Shown: positions 50,578 to 53,332 of the stretch, piece after piece
Layout of the letters: each line of letters starts with the position of its first letter
How positions within the stretch are numbered: position 1 is the first letter of the stretch
From: Acetomicrobium sp. S15 = DSM 107314
Lineage (GTDB): Bacteria > Synergistota > Synergistia > Synergistales > Thermosynergistaceae
Length of the DNA: 64,000 bases
Direction: 5' to 3'
NCBI RefSeq assembly: GCF_016125955.1
Contig: NZ_JADEVE010000289.1
Span: forward strand, 1-64,000
Notes under the pieces: model-generated
What the model saw: the letters and a program-made list of their open reading frames with translations, nothing else
Database searches by the model: none
Told to the model about the DNA's origin: nothing
Translations under genes and position numbers: made by a program

Positions 50578-50706
50578 CCCATCTAATAGAACAAAGAGAA
50601 GACATGGCTACGAGGATGCTGGCCATACACAGATGGGCATACTTTAATTTTTATATGAGGCAACGAATCCGTTTCGCTTTGATTTTAAGTGAGGCAACTC
50701 GGGGGG

Positions 50707-50735
50707 TTGACAAGTTGGAAAATGTCATGTAAAGT
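50707..50735 (+). promoter_or_regulatory. Promoter of the T-box/lysW operon
   Basis: A perfect TTGACA (50707-50712) and TAAAGT (50730-50735) are separated by 17 bases; TG directly precedes the -10. Transcription would begin near 50742, just ahead of the T-box leader. Confidence 0.75.
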
Positions 50736-50741
50736 TCACTC

Positions 50742-51034
50742 AAGCGGAAGGAACCTGAACAAGAGTACATAACGTAAATGGCGATGAAGCGAGATGCCCG
50801 AAGGGGCGACGCGTTTACAGAGAGGGTCGTTCACCGGCTGAGAGGCGACCTAAATGCGCTGGAGGGCTCAAAGCTCGCGGAGCTGGCGCCGAAAGGGTTT
50901 ATTTCCTGGAGTAAGCGCTCGGTTCGGATCCCCGTTATAGGATCCAGAGAGGGGCGTGAAAGCGCCCAAGTTGGGTGGTACCACGGGCTGTTATGGCAGC
51001 TCGTCCCTGTGGGGACGGGCTGCCAATTTTTTTA
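50742..51034 (+). promoter_or_regulatory. T-box riboswitch leader upstream of lysW, likely lysine-specific
   Basis: The T-box sequence TTGGGTGGTACCACGG (50971-50986) is near-consensus, and a terminator follows directly. Stem I is recognisable. CGCGTTTA (50810-50817) pairs with TAAATGCG (50851-50858), enclosing CAGAGAG and a GGTCG/CGACC hairpin. The base GCGAG (50789-50793) pairs with CTCGC (50874-50878). Just before that 3' base strand, separated by one purine, is AAA (50870-50872), where the specifier codon is expected. I read it as a lysine codon, though the 5' AGUA-type motif is imperfect (an AGAGTAC also occurs at 50762). UGGU in the bulge would pair with a tRNA having A73. Uncharged tRNA should allow read-through into the operon. 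Confidence 0.85.
50995..51033 (+). terminator. T-box-controlled intrinsic terminator
   Basis: GGCAGCTCGTCCC (50995-51007) pairs with GGGACGGGCTGCC (51012-51024) in a 13-pair stem with one U-G, loop TGTG, then AATTTTTTT. Its 5' strand lies just after the T-box, as required for exchange with an antiterminator. Confidence 0.9.
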
Positions 51035-51052
51035 ATGAAGAGGTGACTAAAG

Positions 51053-51220
51053 ATGAAGGTTACCTGTGTAGTATGCGAGGCCGAGATCACACTACCATCG
51101 GGGGCTGTGGTGGGGGAGCTTTTGGTTTGTCCGGATTGCGGCACGGAACTCGAGCTGATTTCACTGGATCCTCCCACCGTTGAAGAAGCTCCTCAGGTGG
51201 AGGAAGATTGGGGGGAGTGA
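51053..51220 (+). CDS. lysW: Amino-group carrier protein LysW
   Basis: A 55-residue acidic protein. Four cysteines in two CxxC pairs (C5, C8, C26, C29) form the zinc ribbon (KVTCVVCEAE, LVCPDCGTELEL), and the C-terminus is exactly EDWGE, whose last Glu is joined to the substrate amino group. LysW protects and carries alpha-aminoadipate (or glutamate) through kinase, reductase and aminotransferase steps. GAAGAGGTG lies 8 bases before the ATG. It directly follows the T-box terminator and is followed 2 bases later by lysX. The gene is easily missed because of its size. Confidence 0.95.
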   Translation: MKVTCVVCEAEITLPSGAVVGELLVCPDCGTELELISLDPPTVEEAPQVEEDWGE

Positions 51221-51222
51221 AA

Positions 51223-52092
51223 ATGCCACGGATACGCATTTTTTACACGCGCCTTCGCAAGGAGGAGAAGCTCCTCGCAGAGGCTGCCGAGAGGGAGGGC
51301 ATTCCTTATTCCTTGGAGGATGCCAGAGAAATGCATTTCGGCGCCACGACGGGTTTGTCTGACGACGTCATACTGTGTCGTTGCATAAGCCACAGCCAGA
51401 ATGTAGCCTTGGCGCACTTCTTTGAGGGGATGGGACACAGGGCCGTAAATCCGGCGTCTGTCATGGAAAAGTGCGGTGATAAACTGGCCACCAGCATGGC
51501 CTTGGAAAGGGCGGGAATACCACAGCCGGCCTTTCGCTTTGCCCTCTCGCCCGAGGCAGCGTTATCGGCTGCAGAGGAGTTGGGATATCCCGTAGTTTTT
51601 AAGCCTCTGACCGGGAGCTGGGGAAGGCTTTTGGCGAAGGCGAACGACAAAGATGCCGCTGAAGCCATCATAGAGCACAAGTTCAATATGGGCCCATTGC
51701 ATCAAGTTTTTTACGTTCAAGAGTATATCGAAAAGCACGGCTACGACGTTAGGGCTTTTATAGTGGGCGGTGAACCCATAGCAGCTATCCGCCGGCTGAG
51801 CGACCATTGGATAACGAACACCGCTCGTGGTGCCAAGGCCGTGGCAGAACCGGTAGAGGGCGAACTGGAGCATATATTGCGCAGGGTTCACGCAGCCATC
51901 GGCGGCGATATTTTGGCGGTGGATGTCTTCCCGACCGATGACCGTGGGTGGCTGATCAACGAAGTAAACGACGGTGCTGAATTTAGGAACTCAATCGAGC
52001 CGACCGGCGTCGATATCCCCGGCGAGATCATGCACTTTTGTTGGAAGCTTTGTTGCGGCCTTTCCGGCGAATTGGCGCTTGCGAGGGGGTAA
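51223..52092 (+). CDS. lysX: LysW ligase, LysX/ArgX family (RimK-like ATP-grasp)
   Basis: A 289-residue ATP-grasp ligase. KCGDKLATSMALERAGIPQP and YPVVFKPLTGSWGRLL mark the nucleotide site; AVDVFPTDDRGWLINEVND contains metal ligands, and EFRNSIEPTGVDIPG follows. It ligates the amino group of alpha-aminoadipate or glutamate to the C-terminal Glu of LysW. The TGVDIPG ending looks more like LysX than ArgX as I remember these families, but that is not proof. The ATG at 51223 uses GGGGGGAG inside the lysW 3' end. A 199-base gap with a repeat structure follows. Confidence 0.9.
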   Translation: MPRIRIFYTRLRKEEKLLAEAAEREGIPYSLEDAREMHFGATTGLSDDVILCRCISHSQNVALAHFFEGMGHRAVNPASVMEKCGDKLATSMALERAGIPQPAFRFALSPEAALSAAEELGYPVVFKPLTGSWGRLLAKANDKDAAEAIIEHKFNMGPLHQVFYVQEYIEKHGYDVRAFIVGGEPIAAIRRLSDHWITNTARGAKAVAEPVEGELEHILRRVHAAIGGDILAVDVFPTDDRGWLINEVNDGAEFRNSIEPTGVDIPGEIMHFCWKLCCGLSGELALARG

Positions 52093-52180
52093 TCTTTGGT
52101 GGCTAAAAAGGCGCTCACATTGCCGTTAAAACAGAAAAGATGCCCCGAGGACAAACCGAAGGGGAGGATTGACATTTTCG

Positions 52181-52267
52181 CTGCGGGCTAAACATAGCGA
52201 TAACGACTCAAGTCTTCATCCATAAAAGCTATTTTTAGCCCGCAGGGTAAAACCCCTTGCGGGCTAA
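52181..52267 (+). repeat. Three-part inverted/direct repeat forming two mutually exclusive hairpins, lysX-lysY gap
   Basis: Element A is CTGCGGGCTAAA (52181-52192). Element B is its exact reverse complement (52234-52245). Element C repeats 10 bases of A, TGCGGGCTAA (52258-52267). A-B pairs over 12 bases and continues, after one mismatch, with ATAGC/GCTAT, giving 17 pairs. B-C pairs over 10 bases, plus GGG/CCC near the loop. The two hairpins cannot coexist. No U-tract follows either one. The lysY ribosome site starts 10 bases after C. A TTGACA (52169-52174) just upstream could belong to an internal promoter. Confidence 0.8.
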
Positions 52268-52291
52268 GCCATTTATAGAGGAGGTATAGCC

Positions 52292-53332
52292 TTGCCACGT
52301 GTAGCGGTGTGGGGTGGGGCCGGCATGACAGGGGGAGAGCTGCTTCGTCTGTTGGCCCGCCACCCATCTTTAGAACTTGCGGTAACTGTGTCGCGGAGTC
52401 AAGCCGGAAAACCGATTTGGCATCAGCATCCCATTCTGCGACCCGACTATCCGGATATGACCTTTTCCAACCCTGAGGATGCGCTCAAGGAAGAGGTAGA
52501 TCTGGCGTTTCTCGCCTTACCTCATGGCACATCTTGTCCCATCATCGAGGGGTATCGCAAAGCGAACGTGCCGGTAGTTGATCTTTCGGCGGACGTGCGC
52601 CTCAGGGATGAAGGTATTTACAGACGATGGTATGGCCGTGCTCACCCCAGCCCCGAGCTTCTGAAAGAAGCGGTCTATGGCCTGCCGGAGCTGCACAGGG
52701 AAGAGCTCAAAGGTGCAACACTTGCCAGCGGCGTCGGGTGCAACGCCACCTGTGCTATATTAGGGCTATTTCCCCTGGCCAGGGAGGGCCAGATAGAGCG
52801 CCTTCACTTGGAGGTGCGCGTAGGTTCTTCCGAGGGAGGGGCCAGCCCGACGCAGGGGAGCCATCACCCTTATCGCAGCAGGGCGATGCGCGTGATAGAT
52901 CCCTTTCGCCACAGACACCTCGCCGAGATACTCCAGGAGCTTAAACTCCCCGAGGAATCCGTGGCGATGACGACTACCGCGGTGGAGATGGTGAGGGGCG
53001 TTCAGATGATGGCGTACGTGACGCTTAAAGATAAGGTTTCCGAAGCCGAGCTGTGGAAGCTCTACAGGAAGGCGTTTCGCAACGAACCGTTCCTGCATCT
53101 GTGCCCGGCACAGCCTGCCCACCTGAGGTTTCCGGACCCGCGCTATGTGTTGGGGAGCAATAGGGCGCTCGTGGGGTTTGCCCTCCACGATGATGGCCGC
53201 AGGCTCTTGGTTACGAGTGCTATAGACAATTTGATGAAGGGAGCCTCGGGCACAGCGCTCCAGGCTGCCAACGTCATGCTGGGCCTCCCAGAAGAAGCCG
53301 GGCTTGAGATGATGCCGGTTTTCCCAGCGTGA
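52292..53332 (+). CDS. lysY: LysW-aminoadipyl/glutamyl phosphate reductase, ArgC/LysY family
   Basis: A 346-residue NADPH-dependent reductase. It opens VAVWGGAGMTGGELLRLL (dinucleotide-binding Gly motif; usually GASGYxG) and carries the catalytic Cys in GVGCNATCAI, the VRVGSSEGG and THAEM-like TTAVEMVRG segments. It reduces the LysW-bound acyl phosphate to the semialdehyde. The start is TTG at 52292, behind GAGGAGG by 7 bases. lysZ follows after 16 bases. Its reference homologue in arginine synthesis is ArgC; the LysW context supports LysY. Confidence 0.92.
   Translation: MPRVAVWGGAGMTGGELLRLLARHPSLELAVTVSRSQAGKPIWHQHPILRPDYPDMTFSNPEDALKEEVDLAFLALPHGTSCPIIEGYRKANVPVVDLSADVRLRDEGIYRRWYGRAHPSPELLKEAVYGLPELHREELKGATLASGVGCNATCAILGLFPLAREGQIERLHLEVRVGSSEGGASPTQGSHHPYRSRAMRVIDPFRHRHLAEILQELKLPEESVAMTTTAVEMVRGVQMMAYVTLKDKVSEAELWKLYRKAFRNEPFLHLCPAQPAHLRFPDPRYVLGSNRALVGFALHDDGRRLLVTSAIDNLMKGASGTALQAANVMLGLPEEAGLEMMPVFPA

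Follow-up and report, generated by a model that had tools for sequence, protein, structure and literature searches.

A probable lysine-rich leader-peptide attenuator between lysX and lysY in the LysW lysine operon of Acetomicrobium sp. S15

Leader-peptide attenuators of the trp, his, thr and ilv type combine a short ORF, rich in codons for the product amino acid, with mutually exclusive helices that have one arm in common. Attenuators can also lie inside an operon, as in the pyr operon of Bacillus subtilis, where internal attenuators are repeated downstream of a leader attenuator and work through the PyrR protein with no leader peptide. In the LysW-type lysine pathway, attenuation by a leader peptide is known for the homocitrate synthase gene of Thermus thermophilus. 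Our literature search, in which subscription journals were thinly covered, found no paper on attenuation in LysW operons or in lysine genes of Synergistota.

Here we analyze the gap between lysX and lysY in a 64,000-nucleotide stretch of the Acetomicrobium sp. S15 genome (the window; contig NZ_JADEVE010000289.1). We consider it likely that this gap is a ribosome-mediated leader-peptide attenuator located inside the operon. The leader ORF, both alternative pairings with their non-randomness, the plan shared by five families and the covariation within a single family are observed, and ribosome stalling with a response to lysine is inferred. The features of the locus are collected in Table 1.

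Table 1. Features of the lysW-lysX-lysY region, in coordinates of the window
Feature	Position	Strand	Basis or remark
Likely operon promoter, TTGACA-17-TAAAGT	50707..50735	+	Consensus match only; about one expected by chance
T-box leader upstream of lysW, apparent specifier AAA (Lys)	50775..51011	+	RF00230
T-box terminator with U-tract	50994..51025	+	14-bp stem, then ATTTTTTT
lysW	51053..51220	+	TIGR01206 over cut-off
lysX	51223..52092	+	TIGR02144 over cut-off
Leader-ORF ribosome site GAGGGGG	52083..52089	+	Within lysX 3' end; 9 nt before GTG 52099; sequence
Leader ORF, MAKKALTLPLKQKRCPEDKPKGRIDIFAAG*	52099..52191	+	30 codons, GTG start, 6 Lys and 2 Arg, TAA inside element A
Element A (antiterminator 5' arm), CTGCGGGCTAAA	52181..52192	+	12 perfect pairs with B; 0/1000 shuffles
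A-B inner helix 5' arm ATAGC	52194..52198	+	Pairs with 52228-52232; sequence
A-B inner helix 3' arm GCTAT	52228..52232	+	Pairs with 52194-52198; sequence
Element B (arm common to both helices), TTTAGCCCGCAG	52234..52245	+	Pairs with A or C
Element C	52258..52267	+	10 pairs with B plus GGG/CCC; 0/1000 shuffles; no U-tract after C
lysY ribosome site GAGGAGG	52278..52284	+	Sequence
lysY (ArgC-like reductase)	52292..53332	+	TIGR01850 over cut-off

The genes downstream of the gap are lysY-lysZ-lysJ-lysK in that order. The likely operon promoter is the only sigma-70-like site within 50600-53000. The T-box leader scores 58.3 bits against RF00230 (E 1.3e-10), short of the gathering score of 93. In the alignment, the specifier position is AAA in the window and AAG or AAA in relatives, and by this reading of the alignment the specifier appears to be a lysine codon. 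A preliminary description of this DNA, made from the sequence alone, had taken the lysX-lysY gap for a candidate second switch, and the analysis supports a second switch behind the leader T-box. The combination of a T-box before lysW and an attenuator arrangement between lysX and lysY occurs in the window and in family f5, whose attenuator is of the terminator type. No T-box was found in the tested loci of family f4, apart from weak matches in G053 and in genus g12.

Within the gap, the A-B helix consists of 12 bp, a C/U mismatch (52193/52233) and a further 5 bp, as read from the sequence. In the B-C helix, B 52235-52244 pairs with C over 10 bp, and GGG 52245-52247 pairs with CCC 52253-52255. 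The antiterminator A-B and the second helix B-C are mutually exclusive, since both use B. In order to compare these pairings with chance, B was tested for duplex formation against each side of the gap using 1000 dinucleotide shuffles per side. The best duplex with the upstream side has an energy of -31.1 kcal/mol (shuffles -14.8 +/- 2.5; 0/1000; z -6.5), and that with the downstream side -26.2 kcal/mol (shuffles -13.3 +/- 2.9; 0/1000; z -4.4). The gap as a whole has a folding z of -3.57. The hairpins formed by A, B and C are real and well beyond chance. Both pairings had been placed correctly in the preliminary description, and its attenuator layout with mutual exclusion through B stands, each helix being reached by 0/1000 shuffles.

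That description did not include the leader ORF, which opens directly after the lysX stop and ends with a TAA at 52189-52191 within element A. A short ORF with a ribosome site therefore stands ahead of the alternative hairpins, which is the arrangement of a ribosome-mediated attenuator. Lysine makes up 20% of its residues, versus 3-4% in the operon enzymes (binomial P about 0.002), so that codons for the pathway amino acid are concentrated here; lysine columns are also conserved in the leaders of family f4. A distance of 22 nt separates the last lysine codon from A downstream. Judged by ribosome footprint sizes for a stalled versus a terminating ribosome, the geometry fits: a stall at the last lysine codon would spare A, and the stop codon lies in A. 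The preliminary description matched the gap to no known class of regulator; the lysine-rich mini-ORF ending in A, together with U-tract arrangements in relatives, points instead to a leader-peptide attenuator.

In the mechanism that we propose, ribosomes would translate the 30-codon leader starting right after lysX. When charged Lys-tRNA (possibly also Arg-tRNA) is scarce, a ribosome would stall at one of the six lysine codons and leave A free. Free A would pair with B and block B-C, and lysYZJK would be expressed. When lysine is plentiful, the ribosome would reach the stop inside A and mask it, allowing B-C to form and lowering downstream expression. In relatives, B-C with its U-tract would act as an intrinsic terminator.

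The only other species of the genus in our data (G001) has the leader copy MAKKALTLPSKLNKPKRCPEGKPKGRIGIFAAG*, with a net in-frame insertion of 9 nt; every lysine is kept and one is gained. A single base is deleted from the GGG run of the B-C hairpin, which is untranslated. Identity to the window genome is 93.5% in the gap versus 92.5-93.0% in the flanking genes, and the core pairs of A-B and B-C show zero substitutions between these two sequences. Conservation of the gap between two sequences of the same genus is compatible with constraint, short of proof. No U-tract follows C in either species and no terminator is called there; the preliminary description had already noted its lack in the window.

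The same gap was then extracted from Synergistota genomes with lysX. In about 35 genomes from five families (f1, to which the window belongs, f4, f5, f6 and f8) it contains a Lys/Arg-rich mini-ORF followed by A, B and C, and the leader ORF of the window thus has positional counterparts in four other families. In f4, f5, f6 and f8 the mini-ORF opens at the lysX stop or close to it, and nearly all of these loci have a U-tract behind C. Relatives devoid of A or C would, by the preliminary description, have counted against its reading; both elements are present in the nearest relative, although f2, f3 and f9 have no lysX-lysY gap at all. The A-B duplex beats shuffles at the 5% level in just 11 of 38 single loci, partly because the gaps are GC-rich. 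The perfect pairs of the window, 12 in A-B and 10 in B-C, make both helices stronger than in most relatives.

Other arrangements and elements were noted at some loci. Families f7 and f10 (L017, L028, L029, L035) have bare intrinsic terminators about 30 nt past the lysX stop, with no leader ORF. In f6, the Lys/Arg-rich frame of L022 and L023 (76 codons) runs on without a stop past the terminator hairpin and into the start of lysY, unlike the frames of other families. At L036 16-193 (G168), the sequence upstream of lysX contains a strong cobalamin riboswitch (92 bits) on the same strand. At L059 (G039) and L078 (JAJUIT010000131.1), a T-box-like GGGTGGTACCGCG is found downstream of one of two lysX copies, which suggests two separately controlled LysX operons.

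Family f4 is the best sampled, with an alignment of 22 sequences. Its leaders have the core (N)KCKRGIKR or similar, with lysine in 21/22, 20/22 and 22/22 sequences at the core lysine columns; AAA and AAG are mixed in the first column, and the other two are mostly AAG. Element A is kept as GGGYCG, and the leader frame across it differs by 2 nt between subgroups. As the frame shifts while A stays, A is conserved at the RNA level and the Lys/Arg cluster at the peptide level. The A-B helix is paired at 86%, versus 38-55% when the partner is slid; five of its pairs show changes on both sides, and the six core pairs are 98% paired. The B-C helix is paired at 91% with three pairs changed on both sides, although most of its pairs vary little; its covariation score was reached by 136/500 shuffles, so that support for B-C comes mainly from pairing and the U-tract. 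Hairpin 1, within the leader around the lysine codons, has 11 doubly changed cells versus 4.7 in shuffles (0/500). All three helices are kept in f4, with compensatory changes. The covariation suggested as a check in the preliminary description is seen in f4, which keeps both pairings with double changes; in the window genus no core pair varies (n=2). The f4 leaders terminate 20-35 nt beyond the first base of A; a terminating ribosome would thus leave A unmasked, and control there would have to be kinetic.

A covariance model built on f4 (R1) detects the lysX-lysY gap in 30 genomes of f4, f5 and f6, a single time in each. Its remaining matches are weak, and the one that was checked (G060) is an ordinary terminator behind an unrelated gene. 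The model gives no match to the window, and the link between f1 and the other families is therefore one of position, plan and leader composition, not of sequence.

The U-tract that marks the second helix of relatives as an intrinsic terminator is absent in the window genus; intrinsic termination is accordingly not supported there. The gap would work like a leader-peptide attenuator, yet in this genus it falls outside the terminator class. Our best guess is that B-C acts there by weak or factor-assisted termination, or by pausing. A missing U-tract in both species would also be expected if the genus had lost an ancestral one because the T-box already provides lysine control, leaving hairpins that are nearly idle or that stabilize or process the mRNA. 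The T-box with its apparent lysine specifier and a gap no more conserved than its flanks agree with such decay. We nevertheless think it unlikely, given that the 12 and 10 perfect pairs exceed those of most relatives, that the leader frame, lysine codons and core pairs are intact in both species, and that f5 retains a T-box plus a terminator. Control could instead be translational, as the preliminary description had allowed, with B-C extended by 52214-52226 / 52272-52284 to hide the lysY ribosome site after full translation of the leader. Attenuators with a ribosome-site-sequestering structure in place of a terminator have been described (PMC9413887), and a fold of 52204-52300 does place the site in an extended stem. 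However, the complementarity of 52214-52226 to the site (11/13 pairs) is no better than that of shuffles, 689/1000 of which reach it in the window and 830/1000 in the relative. Opening energies for the site also fail to tell the two states apart consistently in the two species. Sequestration was rejected on these grounds, and translational control of this kind appears quite improbable.

Direct sensing, in which lysine, tRNA or LysW would bind the RNA and A, B and C would serve as the expression platform of a riboswitch, draws on the alternative-hairpin layout and on the T-box earlier in the operon. We judge it very improbable: the Rfam search of the gap returned neither a riboswitch aptamer nor a T-box, RF00230 being matched only upstream of lysW; an apparently translated ORF fills the space upstream of A; and what f4 conserves ahead of A is a Lys/Arg codon cluster with a hairpin. 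The riboswitch option of the preliminary description finds no support in the same search. There is next to no likelihood that the perfect inverted repeats reflect chance or a dispersed, REP- or MITE-like repeat, a prospect that the preliminary description had itself raised. Both genomes of the genus contain a single copy of the B-C hairpin, which refutes a dispersed repeat; no shuffle out of 1000 matched the pairings, and the same plan recurs at the equivalent site in other families. An internal promoter was likewise considered and rejected. The TTGACA that the preliminary description had pointed out is present at 52169-52174, but it is unsupported as a promoter because it falls within the leader ORF, lacks a good -10 and is replaced by TTGGCA in the relative.

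The arginine codons of the leader raise the question of a second amino acid. ArgJ is missing from the window genome and from 180 of 188 Synergistota genomes (present in 8/188), and ArgH is present in 171 of the 188; this near-absence and near-universality suggest that arginine is made by a LysW-type or an ArgE-type route throughout the phylum. A second LysX-like ATP-grasp gene was observed in the window genome (L051 620-1561; contig C184:85334-86161). Its product is 58% identical to the operon LysX and just over the TIGR02144 cut-off, and it is a candidate ArgX for arginine synthesis on LysW. With ArgJ missing, ArgH present and a second LysX-like protein at hand, it is plausible that LysYZJK also serve arginine synthesis. 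How the arginine and LysW-type lysine pathways are related has been examined in an archaeon (PMC10433800). Sharing of LysYZJK with arginine would explain why lysine and arginine codons stand in a leader directly before those enzymes. As a tentative extension, which we hold to be possible though doubtful, the leader would be a two-amino-acid (Lys and Arg) sensor governing only the shared LysYZJK, with lysW-lysX under the lysine T-box; in the window genus it would operate in the absence of a U-tract, terminating or pausing by a route undescribed for such leaders.

If the attenuator reading is true, Synergistota carry an undescribed family of lysine (perhaps arginine) leader-peptide attenuators within the LysW lysine operon. 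In lineages where it is stacked on a T-box, a single operon would sense one tRNA in two ways, directly and via the ribosome, and the second reading point would separate the carrier and the first enzyme from enzymes that act later and may be shared. The genus lacking the U-tract would offer a natural test of leader function in the absence of an intrinsic terminator.

The gap resembles the trp, his, thr and ilv-type attenuators in its short ORF rich in the product amino acid and in its mutually exclusive helices with a common arm, and its relatives further have a pause-type hairpin in the leader, as those systems do. Unlike them, it sits between operon genes 2 and 3 behind a T-box, its codons are for lysine and arginine, and in the window genus its second hairpin lacks a U-tract. 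The T-box upstream of lysW likewise senses tRNA charging, apparently that of tRNA-Lys, but does so directly and without translation, and it is absent from the lysX-lysY gap. The B. subtilis pyr operon shares the placement of an attenuator inside an operon behind a leader attenuator, and differs in relying on PyrR rather than on a leader peptide. The T. thermophilus leader is of the same regulation type and belongs to the same pathway, and differs in the gene controlled and in phylum. The kind of attenuator is thus known, and what sets this locus apart is its place within the operon, its Lys/Arg leader, its stacking on a T-box and its U-less form in the window genus.
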